This document shows, in pieces, positions 53,349-61,730 of a DNA stretch of 64,000 nucleotides. The position numbers were made by a program, and so were the translations under genes. The number at the start of each line of letters is the position of its first letter. Position 1 is the first letter of the stretch. This DNA is from Mesoterricola sediminis (GTDB lineage Bacteria; Acidobacteriota; Holophagae; Holophagales; Holophagaceae), in contig NZ_AP027081.1 of the NCBI RefSeq assembly GCF_030295425.1, forward strand, positions 1,302,001 to 1,366,000, read 5' to 3'. The notes below the pieces were generated by a model. That model had not been told where the DNA came from, searched no databases, and was given only the letters and a program-made list of their open reading frames with translations.

Positions 53349-53741
53349 TCAGGCGTGGGGGGCGCCCTGGTCCTCCGCCCAGCGGCAGGCCCGGGCCAGG
53401 GAGGTCTCGAAATCGGTCAGCTTGAAGGGCTTGCGCAGGAAGTCAAAGACGCCGAGCCGCTGGGCCTTCCGGGCCAGCTCCTCGCTGGCGTACCCGGTCA
53501 TGAGGATGCAGGGCACCGCGGGGGCCCGCTCCCGGAGGTAGGCCAGCAGCTCCAGGCCGGACTTGCCCCCGGGCATGTTCTGGTCGGTGACGACGACGGC
53601 GGGCTTCCAGCCCTCCCACCCCGCGAGGGCGGCCTCGGCCGTCTCCGCGCCGAAGACGCGGTAGCCCAGGGAGGCCAGGGCGTCCACGAGGAGCTCCCGG
53701 AAATCCTCCTCGTCGTCGACGATCAGGACGGGGCCGCGCAT
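53349..53741 (-). CDS. Receiver-only response regulator
   Basis: 130 residues starting at ATG 53741, which shares a base with the stop of the upstream HD-GYP gene (TGATG). Complete receiver: VDDEEDF, phospho-Asp in VVTDQNMPGG, LMTGYAS with Thr, LRKPF with Lys. No output domain. It resembles the receiver of the upstream gene closely in many stretches (AETAEAAL, ILMTGYAS), so the two likely arose by duplication and may compete for the same kinase. Confidence 0.9.
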   Translation of the reverse strand: MRGPVLIVDDEEDFRELLVDALASLGYRVFGAETAEAALAGWEGWKPAVVVTDQNMPGGKSGLELLAYLRERAPAVPCILMTGYASEELARKAQRLGVFDFLRKPFKLTDFETSLARACRWAEDQGAPHA

Positions 53742-55174
53742 CACCGGTACTCCGCTTCCGGCTTGAGTTCGTCCTTGGTGAGGAGGTAGACGCCGCCGTC
53801 CAGGAAGATGCGGAGGGCGTCCGCGTCCAGGAGGCCCGCCTGGGTCTCGGCCTCGAGGATCTCCAGGCTCTTGGGGATGGTCACGGCGGCCTTGTAGGGC
53901 CGGTCCGCGGCGACGAGGGCGTCGTAGACGTCGCAGATGGCCATCAGCTTGGCCTGGACGGGGATCTGCGGGGCCTTGAGGCCGCGCGGGTAGCCCATGC
54001 CGTTGAGGCGCTCGTGGTGCGTGTAGGCGATCTCGGGCAGGTCCGCCAGGGGCCCCGTCCAGGGGATCTGCTGGAGGAACTGCCAGGTCTTGGTGACGTG
54101 GCTGTTGATCTCCCGGCGCTCGTCCTCGGAGAGGCTGCCCTTGGGGATCCGCAGGGCGGCGATGTCCTCGGGCTCCAGGATCCGGGCCCGGCCGGACTGG
54201 AAGTGGGTGAAGGCGAGATCCTCGAGGTCGCCCATGGCCTCCTTCACCTCCTGGGGGAGGACCTTGGGCTCGTTGCAGCGGAGGATCAGGTCCATGAGCC
54301 GCCGCGTCTCCTCCTTGCGGGAGGCCATGAGGACGTCGAAGGCCCCCTCCTCGAAGGGCTCGCCGCGCCGCCAGGCCTCCAGGATCCTGGCCGCCACGCC
54401 CTCGAGGTCGCGCTGGTGGAGGCGCTGGAGGATGCGCTCGAGGCGCTCCGGCTCCAGCTTCCGGGCCTTGGTCAGCACCTGCTCCCTGACGCCGACCTTG
54501 CCGAAGTCGTGGAGGAGGCTCGCGTACTCGAGCTCCTTCAGCTGGTCCAGGGTGAACCGCACCGGGCCGTAGGCGCCGCCCTCGGTGGCGTTGACGGCCT
54601 CCGCCAGGGCGACGGTGAGCTTCGCGACGCGCTTGCTGTGGCCCTTGGTGGAGGGGTCCCGGGCTTCAATGGCGAACACCGACGCGTGGACGAAACCCTC
54701 GAAGAGGTTCTCGATGTCGTCCTTGAGCTTCACGACCTCCCGGGTGCGCTCCTGGACCCGGGCCTCCAGCTCGGCCTGGTAGCGCTCGTTGTCCCGCAGG
54801 GCCTTGTAGTAGTTCAGGGTGCGGACGAGGCTGGCCTCCAGCTCCGCCAGCTTGAACGGCTTCTGGATGTAGTCGTAGGCGCCCAGCTTCATGGCCTGGA
54901 GGGCCGTCTCGAGGGACGCGTACCCGGTCATGAGGATGCAGAGCGTCTTCTCGTCCCGCTCCTTGACCCGCTTCATGAGGTCCAGGCCCGACATGCCGCC
55001 GGGCATGTTCAGGTCCGTGAAGATGATCGCGAAATGCTTGCGGTCGACCAGCTCCAGGGCCGCCTCGGCGGTCTCGGCGCCCTCGCAGAGATACCCCATG
55101 CTTTCCAGGGCTTCCACCAGGAGGGTCCGGAAATCGGATTCGTCGTCGACGATCAGGATGTTGTGGGTGTCCAT
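53741..55174 (-). CDS. Response regulator with HD-GYP-like output
   Basis: 477 residues. Receiver at about 1-120 (VDDESDF, FTDLNMPGG, LMTGYAS, IQKPF), a coiled coil (QAELEARVQERTREVVKLKDDI), then an HD domain with LLHDFGKVGVREQ. About 130 residues separate this from the second half, HHERLNGMGYPRG, which has Met where GRGYP is common. HD-GYP proteins cleave c-di-GMP; the long insertion and changed motif leave activity uncertain. 36 bp after the DUF4136 gene region on the same strand. Confidence 0.87.
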   Translation of the reverse strand: MDTHNILIVDDESDFRTLLVEALESMGYLCEGAETAEAALELVDRKHFAIIFTDLNMPGGMSGLDLMKRVKERDEKTLCILMTGYASLETALQAMKLGAYDYIQKPFKLAELEASLVRTLNYYKALRDNERYQAELEARVQERTREVVKLKDDIENLFEGFVHASVFAIEARDPSTKGHSKRVAKLTVALAEAVNATEGGAYGPVRFTLDQLKELEYASLLHDFGKVGVREQVLTKARKLEPERLERILQRLHQRDLEGVAARILEAWRRGEPFEEGAFDVLMASRKEETRRLMDLILRCNEPKVLPQEVKEAMGDLEDLAFTHFQSGRARILEPEDIAALRIPKGSLSEDERREINSHVTKTWQFLQQIPWTGPLADLPEIAYTHHERLNGMGYPRGLKAPQIPVQAKLMAICDVYDALVAADRPYKAAVTIPKSLEILEAETQAGLLDADALRIFLDGGVYLLTKDELKPEAEYR

Positions 55175-55808: not shown

Positions 55809-56885
55809 TCAGGGCGCCAGAGGTTTAACTTGGCCGTCCAGCCAGACCATGAAGCGTCCTTCATGGGCCCAGGGCAGGGCGAGGCCGTTGGCCTCGACCT
55901 CCTGGGTGTGGAAGTGCCCGGTCAGGAAGGTGAGGCCGGGGTGCTCGGCCGCGGCGGCCCGGAAGGCCTCCCGGGGGAAGGCCAGCTTGTAGGCCCGGTT
56001 CGTGGTGGCCAGGGCCCGCTCAAGACGGGCGGCCAGCTTCCGGGCGGCCCCCCTGGGGAGCAGCCTGGCGAGCAGCCACATGGGTCCGCTGCGGGAGACC
56101 AGGTTCCAGATCCGGTACTTCCGGTCGGCGGTGTTGATGAGGTCCCCGTGCTCGAAGGCCAGGCCCTCCCCCTCCAGGCCGCCGCCGAGGCCCTCGCCCA
56201 TGAGGTCGAAGCGCCGGGCATGGCGGTCCAGGAAGTAGTCCCGGTTGCCCAGCCACAGGCCCACCCAGCGGCCCTGGGCCCGCCGCGCGTCCACCCAGGC
56301 CAGGAAGGCCTCCTGGAGGGGGGTTTCCATGCCGGGCAGGCCCACCCACACCTCGAAGGTGTCGCCCAGGAACAGCCAATCGGCTTCCGGGTGGGCCGCG
56401 GTGGCGGCCGCCAGGCCCGTGAGCTCCCCGGACCAGTGGGGGTCGGCCACGAGGATCAGGGGGCGCGCCGGGTCGGGACGCCGGGCCCGGCCCCGGACCC
56501 AGCCCAGGGTGAGCAGCCAGCGGCGGTGGAGGAGGGGCAGGCAGCTGAGGACGAGGCCAAGGCCGCCCCCCAGGGTGTCGGCCACCCAGTCCAGGACATC
56601 GGGGCTGCGCCCCGGCACGAAGGCCTGGTGGATCTCGTCGGTGACCCCATAGAGGGAGACGAGCGCGAAGATGAGCAGGTGCCGCCGGTAGACCGGGAGG
56701 CCGCGGCTCGTGGTGCGGATCGCCACCTCCAGGGCCAGGGCCAGGGCGGCGAACTCGGTCGCGTGGGCCACCCAGTCCAGGGGATGGGCCAGCTCCACCC
56801 CCAGGGGCAGGGCGCTCTGGCTGCTCAGCCAGACGTTCACGATGAGGAGGGCGGCGGGCAGGGCCCAGATCCAGGGTCGGCGCAT
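55809..56885 (-). CDS. VanZ-like membrane domain fused to LpxH-like phosphatase
   Basis: 358 residues. The first about 130 form a VanZ-like domain with four hydrophobic segments (LDWVAHATEFAALALALEV; YGVTDEIHQAFVPGRSPDVLDWVADTLGG). The second part (about 143-358) is a calcineurin-like phosphoesterase: ADPHWSG, FLGDTFEVWVG, LGNRDYFLD, EHGDLIN and GHFHTQE, closest to UDP-2,3-diacylglucosamine hydrolase LpxH of lipid A synthesis. Such a fusion is unusual; it would tether the hydrolase to the inner membrane. Its neighbours (EamA-like and GT39) also suggest envelope lipid work. Confidence 0.88.
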   Translation of the reverse strand: MRRPWIWALPAALLIVNVWLSSQSALPLGVELAHPLDWVAHATEFAALALALEVAIRTTSRGLPVYRRHLLIFALVSLYGVTDEIHQAFVPGRSPDVLDWVADTLGGGLGLVLSCLPLLHRRWLLTLGWVRGRARRPDPARPLILVADPHWSGELTGLAAATAAHPEADWLFLGDTFEVWVGLPGMETPLQEAFLAWVDARRAQGRWVGLWLGNRDYFLDRHARRFDLMGEGLGGGLEGEGLAFEHGDLINTADRKYRIWNLVSRSGPMWLLARLLPRGAARKLAARLERALATTNRAYKLAFPREAFRAAAAEHPGLTFLTGHFHTQEVEANGLALPWAHEGRFMVWLDGQVKPLAP

Positions 56886-56946: not shown

Positions 56947-58059
56947 TCAGAGGAAATCCGGCTCCACGAAGGTGTCGGGGTGCGCCTGGGCGATGGCCGC
57001 GAAGGTGTCGTAGTGCTCGAAGAAGAGGCTGGTGAGTGCGGGGTCGAAGAGCTTGCCGCCGTTCTCCCGGAGGTAGGCGAGCACGTCCTTCTCCTCCCAG
57101 GCCCGCTTGTACACACGCCGGTGGATCAGGGCGTCGTAGATGTCCACCAGGCAGGTGATCCGGGCCTCGATGGGGATCGCCTCCCCGGCCAAGCCCACCG
57201 GGTAGCCGGACCCGTCCCACTTTTCGTGGTGGCAGGCGGCGATGCGGGCCCCCATCTGGATGAAGGGCACCTTGGAATCCCGCAGGATGTTGGCCCCCAT
57301 GGCGGTGTGGGTCTTCATGATGATCCACTCCTCCTCCGTGAGGGCGCCCTCCTTCTGGAGGATCCGGTCGGGCACGCCGATCTTGCCGATGTCGTGCATG
57401 GGCGCTGCCGCTCGAATGGCCTCCTGCCGCGCCGGATCCCAGCCCAGGAGCCGGCCCATTTCCGCGGCGTAGAGGCCGATGCGGCGCACGTGGGCGCCCG
57501 TTTCGTTGTCCCGGTGCTCGGACGCGGAGATGAGCCGCAGGGCCACCTCTTCCCGGGAGGCCTTGATCTCCAGGGTCTGTTCCTGGACCCGCCGGGCCAG
57601 GACCGCCTCCCGGTCCAGGTAGTCCAGCTCCAGCATCCGCCGGCGCAGGGCGTTGGCCACGGCGATGAGGATGTCGTTGGTCTTGAAGGGCTTGAGGACG
57701 TAGCCGTAGGCCCCGTTCCGCAGGCACTCCATGGCCATCTCCGTGTTGTCCAGGGAACTGACCATGACGAAGGCCACCTGGGGGATGCGGTGGGCCACCG
57801 CCTTCACCAGGGAGAGGCCCGTCATGCCCGGCATCTGGATATCGGAGAGGACCAGGTCGATGGGCCGCTGGTCCAGGAGCTCCAGGGTCTGGAAGGCGTC
57901 CGCGGCCTCGTGGCAGGAGAAGCCATGCTGGCGAAGGGTCCGGAGCAGCGCGACCCGGACGATCTCCTGGTCATCCACAACGAGGATATTGATGTCGTTG
58001 GGATCCTGGCCCGGCAGGGGCCAGTCGATGGGCAGGGCGCGGGGGCCGGCTTGGGTCAT
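56947..58059 (-). CDS. HD-GYP response regulator
   Basis: 370 residues. Receiver (about 20-140: VVDDQEI, VLSDIQMPGM, VSSLDN, LKPFK) followed by an HD-GYP domain with SEHRDNETGAHVRR, MHDIGKIGVPD and HHEKWDGSGYPVGL, the full c-di-GMP phosphodiesterase signature (HHExxDGxGYP). Very similar in layout to RpfG. No kinase adjacent. Confidence 0.94.
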   Translation of the reverse strand: MTQAGPRALPIDWPLPGQDPNDINILVVDDQEIVRVALLRTLRQHGFSCHEAADAFQTLELLDQRPIDLVLSDIQMPGMTGLSLVKAVAHRIPQVAFVMVSSLDNTEMAMECLRNGAYGYVLKPFKTNDILIAVANALRRRMLELDYLDREAVLARRVQEQTLEIKASREEVALRLISASEHRDNETGAHVRRIGLYAAEMGRLLGWDPARQEAIRAAAPMHDIGKIGVPDRILQKEGALTEEEWIIMKTHTAMGANILRDSKVPFIQMGARIAACHHEKWDGSGYPVGLAGEAIPIEARITCLVDIYDALIHRRVYKRAWEEKDVLAYLRENGGKLFDPALTSLFFEHYDTFAAIAQAHPDTFVEPDFL

Positions 58060-58104: not shown

Positions 58105-58488
58105 TCACGGGTGCTTGGCCAGGCCCGTGAACGCCTGGAGGGCGACGCCGCAGACGATGAGGCCCAGGGCCGCCCAGCGCAGGGGCGGGATCCCCTCCCC
58201 GAGGAGCCAGCGGCAGAGCAGGGCGTTGGCCAGGAACCCCAGGGCGAGGAAGGGGTACGCGTAGTTCACTTCCACCAGGTTGAGGGCGCCGGCCCAGAGC
58301 ACCACGCTGAGGGCGTAGCAGCCGAGGCAGGTGAGGGTCCAGGGGTGGAGGCCGACCCGCAGGAGGGAGGGGAGGTCCCAGGTCATGCCCCCCACGGCCG
58401 TGAGGCCCTTCTTCATGGCGATCTGGGCGAAGGCGTTCAGGAGCACGCCGGCGAGGATGAGGGGCAGGGCCTTGACATAGGGATTCAT
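58105..58488 (-). CDS. EamA/ArnE-like small membrane protein
   Basis: 127 residues with four membrane segments, one half of a DMT-type transporter (FAQIAMKKGL, NYAYPFLALGF). This is the size of ArnE/ArnF, the half-size flippase subunits for undecaprenyl-phosphate-sugars. It starts 10 bp after the end of the GT39 gene, supporting a joint role in moving and transferring a lipid-linked sugar. The lone copy would need to homodimerise. Confidence 0.82.
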   Translation of the reverse strand: MNPYVKALPLILAGVLLNAFAQIAMKKGLTAVGGMTWDLPSLLRVGLHPWTLTCLGCYALSVVLWAGALNLVEVNYAYPFLALGFLANALLCRWLLGEGIPPLRWAALGLIVCGVALQAFTGLAKHP

Positions 58489-58498
58489 GGGGTCGTCC

Positions 58499-60229
58499 TC
58501 AGGAACGTTTGCGGAGCAGGAGGGCCTCGCCGCCCCCCACGGGAACGCGGAGCAGGATCTCAAAACGGGCGCGGGTGCCATCGTCCAGGCCGGTGCCCTT
58601 GTCCTCCCAGTCCCGGCGCATGGTCACCACCCGGTCCTCGGGGCCGACGGCCTCCAGCTGGGCCACGGTGCGGATCTCGGGCATGAGCTGGTCGGTGTAG
58701 ACCATGACGCCGCTGCGGATGGTCTGCCAGTAGACGACCTTGCGTCCATGGAGGAGGGGCGCCGCCTGGGCGGTCCACACCCGGTAGCCCTTGCGGGCGT
58801 CCAGGCGCTGGAAGCCCCAGGTGCCGGCCACCAGGAAGCAGAGCCCCAGGGTCACGGCGGTCTCCCGGACCAGGTGGCGCCCTTCGCCCAGCCAGGCGCG
58901 GGCCGCGAGGGAGACGGAACCCAGGACCAGAATCAGGGCGCAGAGGCGCAGGGGGCCCAGGTAGGGCGCCACCTCCGCCTGGAGCCGGGCGCCTCCGGCA
59001 TGGGCGAAGGCCACGGCGGCCAGGGCCAGGGCGGGGAGGCCCAGGGCGGCGGCGAGGGTGCCCCCCAGGCGGCGGATCCGGGCGGGGGAGACGGCCTCCA
59101 CGGCCAGGGGCTGGAGGAGGGCCGCCATCAGCAGGGCCAGGAAGGGGTAGATCATGAGGATGTACTTGCTCTGCTTGCTCTGGGAGCAGCTGAGCAGCAC
59201 GAGGGGCGCCAGCACCGCCGCCAGAAGGAAGCGGGCCAGGGGGCTCCTGGCCGCCCCGGATCGGCCGATGAAGAGGGCCAGGGCGGGGAGGAGCAGGGTC
59301 CAGGGGAAGAAGTCGCCGGCCAGGTAGAGCCCGTACTGGTAGAAGGGCTGGATATGGTCCCAGGCCTTCAGGGCCCGCTCGAAGTTCTGGTGGACGATCA
59401 TCTGGTAGGCGTAGGCCGGTCCGCCGCTGACGGCGGCGGCCACGTACCAGGGGGCGATGACCGCGGCCAGGAGGAGGAGGCCCTTGCCCAGGTGGATCCG
59501 GCCCAGCACCTTGAGGTCCCGCTGGATGGCCAGGAAGGTGCCCGCCACGCCGGCGGAGAGGACCAGGGCGAGGGGGCCCTTGGCGAGGAAGGCCAGGCCC
59601 AGGCACAGGTAGGCGGAGAGGAACCAGGTGCGCTCCTCCAGGGGGTACCGGGGCCGCGCGTGGTCCCGGACCAGGAGCCACCCCGCGGCCCAGGCCAGCC
59701 AGCTCCAGGCCAGCAGCGCCGCGAAGACCATGTCGATCTGGATCAGCTGGGACTGCCAGAGCCAGATGGGCGTCGAGACCAGGATCAGGCAGGCCAGGTC
59801 GCCCAGGTCCGCCTGGAGGAAGCGCGCCGCCCACCGGCGGTACCCGAAGACGAAGATCGCCGAGGCCGCCACGCTGGGCAGGCGCAGGGCCCAGGCCGCG
59901 ACCCCCTGGGTGAAGCCGAGGCCCCCGGTGAGCTTCTCGCCCGCGATCACCGAGGCCTTCATCAGCCAGTAGAAGAGGATGGGCTTTTCCGAATAGGGCT
60001 CCCCGTTGAGCCAGGGCAGCAGCCAGGTTCCCCGGAGCCGCATCTCCTTCACGCACTGGGCGAAATCGGGTTCGTCCGGGGACCACAGGTCCCGGCAGGC
60101 GAAGACGGCCAGGAGCAGGAGGGCGAAGAGGAGGGGCACCCGGTTCCGGTGCAGCCAGGCCCGGACGGGCCCCGGCGCCGGGGACGCGGGGAGGCTGCAG
60201 GAGGGGCCTTCGAAGGAGGTTCCGGACAT
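58499..60229 (-). CDS. GT39-family glycosyltransferase (ArnT-like)
   Basis: 576 residues with about 11-12 membrane segments. The first periplasmic loop has RDLWSPDEPDFAQCVKEM, the DE motif of GT39/GT83 enzymes (ArnT/Pmt), followed by WLNGEPYSEKPILFYWL, the second conserved motif. These transfer a sugar from a polyprenyl-phosphate donor to lipid A or protein. With the ArnE-like gene this suggests lipid A or glycolipid decoration. Start at ATG 60229; the C-terminal about 120 residues are a soluble domain. Substrate not known. Confidence 0.88.
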   Translation of the reverse strand: MSGTSFEGPSCSLPASPAPGPVRAWLHRNRVPLLFALLLLAVFACRDLWSPDEPDFAQCVKEMRLRGTWLLPWLNGEPYSEKPILFYWLMKASVIAGEKLTGGLGFTQGVAAWALRLPSVAASAIFVFGYRRWAARFLQADLGDLACLILVSTPIWLWQSQLIQIDMVFAALLAWSWLAWAAGWLLVRDHARPRYPLEERTWFLSAYLCLGLAFLAKGPLALVLSAGVAGTFLAIQRDLKVLGRIHLGKGLLLLAAVIAPWYVAAAVSGGPAYAYQMIVHQNFERALKAWDHIQPFYQYGLYLAGDFFPWTLLLPALALFIGRSGAARSPLARFLLAAVLAPLVLLSCSQSKQSKYILMIYPFLALLMAALLQPLAVEAVSPARIRRLGGTLAAALGLPALALAAVAFAHAGGARLQAEVAPYLGPLRLCALILVLGSVSLAARAWLGEGRHLVRETAVTLGLCFLVAGTWGFQRLDARKGYRVWTAQAAPLLHGRKVVYWQTIRSGVMVYTDQLMPEIRTVAQLEAVGPEDRVVTMRRDWEDKGTGLDDGTRARFEILLRVPVGGGEALLLRKRS

Positions 60230-60326
60230 CCCTCCATCGTCGCCGGGGCGGCCCCAAAGGGCAATTGGTCCGTGGTTTCCCGGGGCCGCGGGCGCCGCCG
60301 GCCCCGCGCGGTGTAACCTGGAACCG

Positions 60327-61730
60327 ATGACCGGAATCCCCGTCCCCCTCGCCGAGCGCATGCGTCCCCGCACCATGGAAGAGGTGGTGGGCCAGGCCCA
60401 CCTCCTGGGCCCCCGGGGGGCCCTGCGGCGGCTCACCGCCGGGGGGCGCCTGCCCAGCCTGGTGCTCTGGGGGCCCCCCGGAACGGGCAAGACCACCCTG
60501 GCGCGGCTCCTGGCCCAGGCCACGGGACACACCTTCCTCGAATTCTCCGGCGCCTCCGGTTCCGCGGCCGAGCTCAAGAAGTTCCTCGGCGAGAACGCGG
60601 CCCAGCCCCTCTTCCGGAGCGTGCCCCCCGTCCTCTTCCTGGACGAGATCCACCGGTTCAACCGGGCCCAGCAGGACATCCTCCTGCCAAGCCTCGAGCG
60701 CGGCGAGGCCATCCTCGTGGGCGCCACGACGGAGAACCCGGCCTTCTACCTCAACCCGGCCCTGCGCAGCCGGTGCCAGCTCCTGCCCCTCAAGCCCATC
60801 GCCCCCGAGGACGTGCGCAAGGTCCTGGACCGCGCGTGGGCCCAGGAGCGGCCCGGCCTGGAGGCCCCCGCCGAGGCCCTGGAATGGCTGTCCCACTGGG
60901 CCGGCGGGGACCTGCGCAGCGCCCTGGCCGGCCTCGAGACCTGGCTCGCCATGGAGGCCCCGGACCTGGAGGGCCTGCGGGAGGCCCTGGGGGGCCGCCT
61001 CATGTACGACCGGGCCGACGGCCACTACGATCTGGCCAGCGCCTTCCAGAAGAGCCTGCGGGGCTCCGATCCCGACGCGGCCCTCTACTACCTCTCCCGC
61101 ATGATCCGGGGCGGCGAGGATCCCCGCTTCATCGCGCGGCGCCTCATGGTCTGCGCCGCCGAGGACGTGGGCAACGCGGATCCCATGGCCTTCATCATGG
61201 CGGAGGCCGCGAGCCGCGCCGCGGAGCAGATCGGGTGGCCCGAGGCCCGCATCCCCCTGGCCCAGGCCGTCATCTACGTGGCCAACGCCCCCAAGAGCAA
61301 CGCCACCGTGGCCGCCATCGACGCGGCCCTGGCCGCGCCCGACGCCCCCATCCCCGAGGCCATCGCCGACGCCCACACCGCCACGAGCCGCTCCGCGGGG
61401 AAGGGGGAAGGCTACTTCTACTCCCACCTGGACTATGACCGGCCCCAGGCCTTCCTCCCCGCGCCCCTGAGGGGCCAGGTCTTCCACCAGCCCCGGCGCC
61501 CCCAGGAACGCAACTGGCGGGACAAGGCCGAGCCCGACGCCGGGGCCCTCGGCGCCCTCTGGCGGGCCTGGACCGAGGCCCACCCCGAGGGCGGCGAGGT
61601 GCCCATGGACGCCTGGGCCGAGACCCTGGCCTGCAGCCGGGAGGCCCTGGCCCGCGCCCTCGCCAAGGCCACCGCCGGCACCTGGAGCCTCGCCCGGGTC
61701 CTGCGGGCCCTGCCGAGGGACGAGGCCTGA
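60327..61730 (+). CDS. rarA: Replication-associated recombination protein A (RarA/MgsA)
   Basis: 467 residues. AAA+ clamp-loader-like ATPase acting at stalled forks. RMRPRTMEEVVGQAHLLG, Walker A GPPGTGKTT, Walker B FLDEIHRFNRAQQD, sensor GATTENPAF and the C-terminal tetramer domain (ALYYLSRMIRGGEDPRFIARRL; YVANAPKSNATVAAI) are all present. Divergent from the GT39 gene. Confidence 0.96.
   Translation: MTGIPVPLAERMRPRTMEEVVGQAHLLGPRGALRRLTAGGRLPSLVLWGPPGTGKTTLARLLAQATGHTFLEFSGASGSAAELKKFLGENAAQPLFRSVPPVLFLDEIHRFNRAQQDILLPSLERGEAILVGATTENPAFYLNPALRSRCQLLPLKPIAPEDVRKVLDRAWAQERPGLEAPAEALEWLSHWAGGDLRSALAGLETWLAMEAPDLEGLREALGGRLMYDRADGHYDLASAFQKSLRGSDPDAALYYLSRMIRGGEDPRFIARRLMVCAAEDVGNADPMAFIMAEAASRAAEQIGWPEARIPLAQAVIYVANAPKSNATVAAIDAALAAPDAPIPEAIADAHTATSRSAGKGEGYFYSHLDYDRPQAFLPAPLRGQVFHQPRRPQERNWRDKAEPDAGALGALWRAWTEAHPEGGEVPMDAWAETLACSREALARALAKATAGTWSLARVLRALPRDEA

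Follow-up and report, generated by a model that had tools for sequence, protein, structure and literature searches.

A VanZ–LpxH fusion protein of Mesoterricola sediminis, a probable membrane-integral LpxH of lipid A synthesis in Holophagaceae

The fused gene, its distribution and its neighbours

The window, meaning the whole stretch of 64,000 nucleotides analysed here, comes from the Mesoterricola sediminis genome, a single contig of 4.52 Mb with a completeness of 100. One of its minus-strand genes joins a VanZ membrane module to a hydrolase domain of LpxH type in a frame that, as read from the open reading frames, runs from ATG to stop without an internal stop codon. This gene, its two parts and the neighbouring genes are listed below.

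55809–56885, minus strand: VanZ–LpxH fusion gene, complete; single open frame, 358 amino acids
56529–56876, minus strand: VanZ-like four-helix membrane module, residues 4–119 (Pfam and NCBIfam VanZ above cut-off, AlphaFold helices, loop charges)
55812–56468, minus strand: LpxH-like metallophosphoesterase domain with helical insertion lid, residues 140–358 (Foldseek, VIA-align)
53741–55174, minus strand: response regulator with HD-type domain (read by eye)
56947–58059, minus strand: HD-domain response regulator, between the fusion and the ArnE-like and GT39 genes
58105–58581, minus strand: ArnE-like small transporter (best NCBIfam ArnE/ArnF match 28 bits, below cut-off)
58499–60727, minus strand: ArnT/GT39-like glycosyltransferase (best NCBIfam ArnT match 95 bits, below cut-off)

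The two-part frame recurs in all 20 relatives aligned with the window protein (alignment A1, 21 rows), at identities of 57–73%. In a sample of 395 Acidobacteriota genomes, 44 of which belong to the Holophagaceae (family f1), bacteria of soils and sediments, the window protein was matched in 43 of the 44 family members. The match starts at profile position 1–6 in 33 of these genomes, thereby including the VanZ part, and at position 30–48 in 10, one of which, G257, has its copy cut off at the end of a contig. No match to the window protein was obtained in G239, a fragmented genome. Given this recurrence, the fusion is not a local chimera. Assembly error, misannotation or read-through of two separate genes, for which nothing speaks except the generic risk of such artefacts, is a practically untenable explanation: the continuous frame is found in many separate assemblies, named Geothrix isolates and single-contig genomes among them, and the inclusion of the VanZ part in 33 of the 44 family genomes refutes it. 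The fusion of a VanZ membrane domain with an LpxH-type hydrolase, as read in an earlier note on this DNA, is thus borne out, and its distribution, which that note had named as a point to check, proved to be family-wide.

In a scan of genome contigs covering the best 80 of 87 relatives, which depends on short exact peptide words and could let remote fusions escape, 38 loci (L003–L040) matched beyond the VanZ part, 34 of them titled Holophagaceae or Geothrix, while in L041–L082 the match was limited to the VanZ part. Two contigs titled Deltaproteobacteria and Bacillota (L028 and L036) carry the Holophagaceae fusion and are probably mislabelled metagenome bins. Outside the family, none of the matches listed covers both the VanZ and the LpxH parts. 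Among 58 LpxH-like frames read there, a hydrophobic stretch ahead of the domain was found in none (best 19-residue mean 1.05), and 39 measure at most 280 amino acids from stop to stop. Plasmid copies of the fusion were absent from 72,556 plasmid records (E ≤ 1e-5). The literature searched contained no report of VanZ and LpxH together, and nothing on Acidobacteriota combined with UDP-diacylglucosamine. Within that literature, the VanZ–LpxH architecture of Holophagaceae is a variant without earlier report.

With the ArnE-like and GT39 genes lying nearby, a locus for lipid A synthesis and decoration had also been suggested. This idea was rejected. An HD-domain response regulator intervenes, and none of 38 relative loci showed homologues of the two genes close to the fusion (tblastn, E ≤ 1e-10, a limit at which a diverged short ArnE could escape); since they do not travel with the fusion, the decoration reading rests on the neighbourhood in one genome. 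Other window neighbours recurred sparsely in the 38 loci (DUF4136 in 5, a CheY-like gene in 4, two HD-GYP genes in 2 each, NagZ in 1 and ClpP in 1), and the 17 loci whose 6-kb flanks are complete had none of them. In two Geothrix loci (L007 and L014) the neighbouring genes resemble, by eye, those for a GTPase of EngB type and an ABC protein of FtsE type. Independently of the fusion, the ArnE-like transporter and the GT39 glycosyltransferase may work as a pair in lipid glycosylation. Two HD-type response regulators (53741–55174 and 56947–58059) enclose the fusion together with a DUF4136 gene.

Fold and active site of the hydrolase domain

Pfam gave no match in the C-terminal half of the window protein. 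Two NCBIfam LpxH models matched there significantly, though far below their cut-offs: NF003743 with E 3.6e-11 (42.7 bits against 134) and TIGR01854 with E 1.2e-6 (28 bits against 190). Because these equivalog cut-offs are missed, the protein lies outside the curated models and is called a divergent LpxH. None of the 31 genomes tested exceeded the NCBIfam LpxH cut-off; the standard LpxH models fall short in Acidobacteriota. In a phmmer search of PDB sequences at E ≤ 1, all 8 distinct sequences matched were LpxH (best E 7.5e-8), and a profile search at the same limit gave 9 distinct sequences, again all LpxH.

The AlphaFold model (mean pLDDT 83.5) has four long N-terminal helices followed by a metallophosphoesterase. 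When it was compared with the PDB by Foldseek, all 16 matches at E ≤ 0.001 were LpxH. VIA-align gave Z-scores of 18.0–18.9 to 22 of the 23 LpxH entries among the matches listed, over 205–218 residues (about 140–358); an LpxH entry with eight mutations (5wly) scored 13.4, and the best protein other than LpxH was YfcE, at 10.7. As modelled, the C-terminal half is an LpxH fold with its helical insertion domain.

The residues that align with the E. coli LpxH active site are as follows.

56436–56444, minus strand: metal-ligand block 1, D148-P-H150 (E. coli Asp8/His10), invariant in 21 of 21 A1 rows and 11 of 11 fused rows
56361–56363, minus strand: metal ligand D175 (Asp41), block 2, invariant in A1 and the 11 fused rows
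56241–56246, minus strand: N214-R215 (Asn79/Arg80), LpxH-specific GNR block; Arg in 11 of 11 fused, 47 of 50 stand-alone and 1 of 6 f3 rows
56148–56150, minus strand: metal ligand H246 (His114), block 4, invariant in A1 and the 11 fused rows
56115–56126, minus strand: D254 to Y257 (Asp122/Tyr125), start of the helical lid; Asp in 67 of 67 and Tyr in 66 of 67 rows
55908–55916, minus strand: metal ligands H324-F-H326 (His195/His197), block 5, invariant in A1 and the 11 fused rows

Residue counts and the tree described below were drawn from 69 domain rows, leaving out L125 and the duplicate rows L121 (of L130) and L129 (of L120); the 67 rows of the Asp/Tyr count comprise 11 fused, 50 stand-alone and 6 f3 rows, two f2 rows not being counted. 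The window protein, the 11 fused rows and the 21 rows of A1 all retain the seven di-metal ligands (Asp8, His10, Asp41, Asn79, His114, His195 and His197). Aligned with E. coli LpxH, the 11 fused rows also keep the equivalents of Arg80, Asp122, Tyr125 and Asn164. The fused frame of G293 (L125, also L039), a fragmented genome whose protein lies outside the 11 fused rows, stops before the last metal-ligand block as a result of a frameshift, an assembly error or decay of the gene.

An arginine in block 3 is described as exclusive to LpxH, other metallophosphoesterases having a histidine there (PMC5016852, PMC3087551). Block 3 of the window protein reads GNRD, and all 20 relatives in A1 have GNRE. 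The window protein therefore departs from the LpxH2 signature GNH(E/D); nor was it matched by the NCBIfam lipid_A_LpxG model at E ≤ 1, its block being GNRD and not GNHD. GNH in place of GNR was observed in stand-alone proteins, namely five of the six f3 rows (L111, L112, L113, L115 and L116) and L155, L159 and L180 of family f18. These proteins sit in genomes without an LpxI match and are natural exceptions to the Arg80 rule.

A second arginine bound to the phosphate of lipid X is reported to be E. coli Arg157 (PMC11009625). Its position, in a helix whose alignment is uncertain, is occupied by Glu in all 11 fused rows (E289 in the window protein) and in 47 of the 50 stand-alone ones. The Lys167 position holds mostly Tyr or His (Tyr in 10 of 11 fused rows). 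From the alignment, R290 and K300, which lie close by, might substitute for these two residues. Natural variants of this kind, with GNH for GNR or Glu at the Arg157 position, test which residues are truly needed for the reaction.

The membrane module

The N-terminal part matched Pfam VanZ (PF04892) with 42.7 bits against a cut-off of 30.1 over residues 39–115, and NCBIfam vanZ_1 (NF037970) with 63.2 bits against 20. VanZ was detected at E ≤ 0.01 in 20 of the 21 A1 members. The AlphaFold model places the helices at residues 4–21, 36–59, 65–87 and 97–119, three of the four being detected by a plain hydropathy scan. The mean number of Lys and Arg residues is 1.2 before helix 1, 0.2, 2.9 and 1.1 in loops 1–3, and 6.05 after helix 4. 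Because of these loop charges, both the N-terminus and the C-terminal hydrolase are predicted to be cytoplasmic, where the substrate is made.

By motif reading the module is VanZ-2-like, and the Pfam VanZ score is consistent with membership of the VanZ/lipocone superfamily; it differs from that superfamily in its fusion to LpxH and in the loss of motifs within the family. The motifs DxxxH (helix 2), DExHQ (helix 3) and DxxxD (helix 4) are present in most fused copies read. In the window protein the motif residues include D37, H41, E84, D99 and D103. Five of the nine genera, g1–g4 and g6 (in g6 the contig is cut and the first motif is missing), keep the motifs in the members read, and they are absent from the members read of g5, g7, g8 and g9. 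DExHQ is missing in 9 of 59 rows, duplicate contigs included. All nine have at least two hydrophobic stretches, by a scan that is a weak test as intact copies yield at most three helices, and eight have an LPxYRRH loop before helix 3. Pfam VanZ was undetected in seven motif-less proteins, including a pair of near-twins from g5, and still detected in g3 and g4 members. Since the motifs are lost while the hydrophobic helices stay, the module in those members is, judged from the sequences, most simply a plain anchor, and the VanZ part would serve mainly as an anchor overall.

For the VanZ families, action on lipid-linked sugar intermediates and a part in lipid-head-group chemistry have been predicted (PMC12419801). 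Modules that keep the motifs may take part in such chemistry on the outer side of the membrane. A bifunctional protein is conceivable and unlikely: on the outer face of the inner membrane its intact VanZ lipocone would sense or cut the head group of a lipid, and a transmembrane coupling would link it to the LpxH domain in the cytoplasm. If it existed, a single polypeptide would adjust lipid A production according to the condition of a periplasmic lipid carrier.

Probable place in lipid A synthesis and proposed origin of the fusion

The step at issue, hydrolysis of UDP-2,3-diacylglucosamine, is the fourth of lipid A synthesis, and LpxK works downstream of it. LpxC and LpxK are both present in the M. 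sediminis genome. Across 31 genomes (22 Holophagaceae and 9 others of the same class), LpxC was found in all 31, LpxK in 30 (the miss being G257) and LpxI in none. With LpxC present and LpxK acting later, the step must be carried out by some enzyme. The window gene was the sole LpxH-like match in the M. sediminis genome, and LpxI (LpxI_C, PF06230) was absent both from the search of that genome and from the window protein, which is thus the only candidate of LpxH or LpxI type found there. The earlier note had asked about another LpxH or LpxI in the genome, and counted a separate canonical LpxH together with lost catalytic residues as evidence against itself; no second LpxH and no LpxI turned up, and the seven metal ligands are intact.

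LpxI is described as an alternative enzyme for the LpxH step (PMC5016852, PMC3087551) and, in PMC5016852, as lacking sequence similarity to LpxH. The 395 Acidobacteriota genomes were searched for LpxI and, with a hydrolase-domain profile (A2), for LpxH-like proteins. LpxI was found in 221 genomes and an LpxH-like protein at E < 1e-20 in 147, with 27 having neither and none having both, at a line drawn after the hits were seen. About 82 genomes with both would be expected if the two were independent, in a statistic that treats related genomes as independent. At the limit of the search itself (1e-6), 169 genomes had an LpxH-profile match and 21 of these had LpxI. The 22 weak hits between 1e-20 and 1e-6 were omitted: 21 lie in LpxI genomes and were taken as other phosphoesterases, and the remaining genome, G080, was counted as having neither. 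By family labels, LpxH-like proteins occur in 34 families and LpxI in 50, and both kinds are represented in a single family, f26, by different genera. The 43 Holophagaceae genomes that match the window protein gave no LpxI. Such exclusion is the pattern expected of two enzymes for one reaction. The 27 genomes with neither enzyme (for example G064, G154, G162, G170 (family f40)) indicate that another route may exist in the phylum. An LpxG search in 10 of them gave matches below the cut-off in nine, and LpxC is present in two, G204 and G239.

With no other LpxH or LpxI found, LpxC and LpxK present, and LpxH and LpxI mutually exclusive, the fusion is most likely the lipid A pyrophosphatase. We regard the window protein as very probably a divergent, membrane-integral LpxH, that is, a UDP-2,3-diacylglucosamine pyrophosphatase held in the inner membrane by four VanZ-type helices; the enzymatic activity is deduced from fold, residues and genome context. 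The suggestion that the fusion places the hydrolase, one of LpxH type, at the membrane is therefore very probably right, while for the other suggestion, a new lipid phosphatase, the evidence favours the ordinary LpxH reaction. In the proposed mechanism, the four helices would hold the enzyme in the inner membrane with both termini in the cytoplasm, the di-metal site would cut the lipid-linked nucleotide to lipid X and UMP, and the helical lid would pass the acylated product to the membrane. Identification of the fusion as an LpxH names the likely missing lipid A hydrolase of Holophagaceae and, through the stand-alone relatives, of much of Acidobacteriota.

Compared with the LpxH enzymes of E. 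coli, P. aeruginosa, H. influenzae and K. pneumoniae, the window protein has the metal ligands, Arg80, Asp122/Tyr125/Asn164, the lid and the fold in common. It differs in its identity of 16–25% over structural alignments, its score below the NCBIfam cut-off, the Glu at the Arg157 position and the additional VanZ module. Known LpxH is described as a peripheral membrane protein (PMC5016852), so that a naturally membrane-tethered form bears on how a peripheral enzyme delivers its lipid product to the bilayer. Chlamydia LpxG, for which the same reaction is proposed, is reported to be calcineurin-like and membrane-associated, and to have a single helix predicted at its N-terminus and the block GNHD (PMC4807358); the fusion is alike in type and membrane association, but has a four-helix module and GNRD. 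The LpxH-like proteins of Acidobacteriota that stand alone, in f3 and other families, belong to the same domain family, with f3 nearest in the tree, and are mutually exclusive with LpxI at E < 1e-20; they differ in having no hydrophobic stretch before the domain (58 of 58) and, in f3, mostly GNH.

An LpxG/YaeI-type membrane phosphoesterase might instead carry out the lipid A step in M. sediminis, leaving the fusion to act on another nucleotide-linked lipid. Of 12 PF00149 matches in the genome, two of this type (L084 and L089) were retained as candidates and the others were dropped on inspection by eye. Both score better against the LpxG model (98.6 and 73.5 bits) than against YaeI, and LpxG-type matches occur in 20 of the 22 Holophagaceae genomes searched. 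Neither reaches the LpxG cut-off of 350, nor does any match in 39 genomes, although control genomes also stay below it, which is a caveat on the cut-off itself. The reduced 1.2-Mb genomes G158 and G281 gave no LpxG-type match (E ≤ 1e-5), yet LpxC, LpxK and the LpxH-type protein are all present in them, which argues against LpxG as a family-wide solution. This assignment, which would also leave the LpxH/LpxI exclusion without explanation and sits poorly with the LpxH-specific Arg and lid of the fusion, is very improbable.

It appears very improbable, too, that an LpxH2-like or general phosphoesterase was recruited to a VanZ lipid-head-group module for the turnover of peptidoglycan or exopolysaccharide lipid carriers rather than for lipid A. 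The weak similarity to the LpxH models and the action on lipid-linked sugar intermediates predicted for VanZ families (PMC12419801) would suit such a role. LpxH2, however, is described as having His in block 3 (PMC3087551), where the fused rows have Arg (11 of 11). In addition, the g5, g7, g8 and g9 members read without VanZ motifs still have their hydrolase motifs, the short frame of G293 excepted, and the mutual exclusion of LpxH-like proteins and LpxI is in keeping with the lipid A step.

A maximum-likelihood tree built from 72 domains unites the fused rows in a single clade (support 100/100), and the nearest group to it comprises the stand-alone LpxH-like proteins of f3, a family within the same class (95/93). 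The root is unsure, since the outgroup rows, from E. coli and of LpxG type, sit on long branches. From this tree we infer that the hydrolase is native to Acidobacteriota and that the membrane module was added in an ancestor of Holophagaceae. The probable order of events would be vertical descent from a stand-alone acidobacterial LpxH, with gain of the VanZ-type module in that ancestor. One genome, G275, carries a second and much weaker LpxH-like match (G275:C1:3525377-3526039, L123; E 4.4e-17) beside the membrane-anchored LpxH; this locus, which gave no match when the domain rows were read, is possibly an LpxH2-like paralogue.
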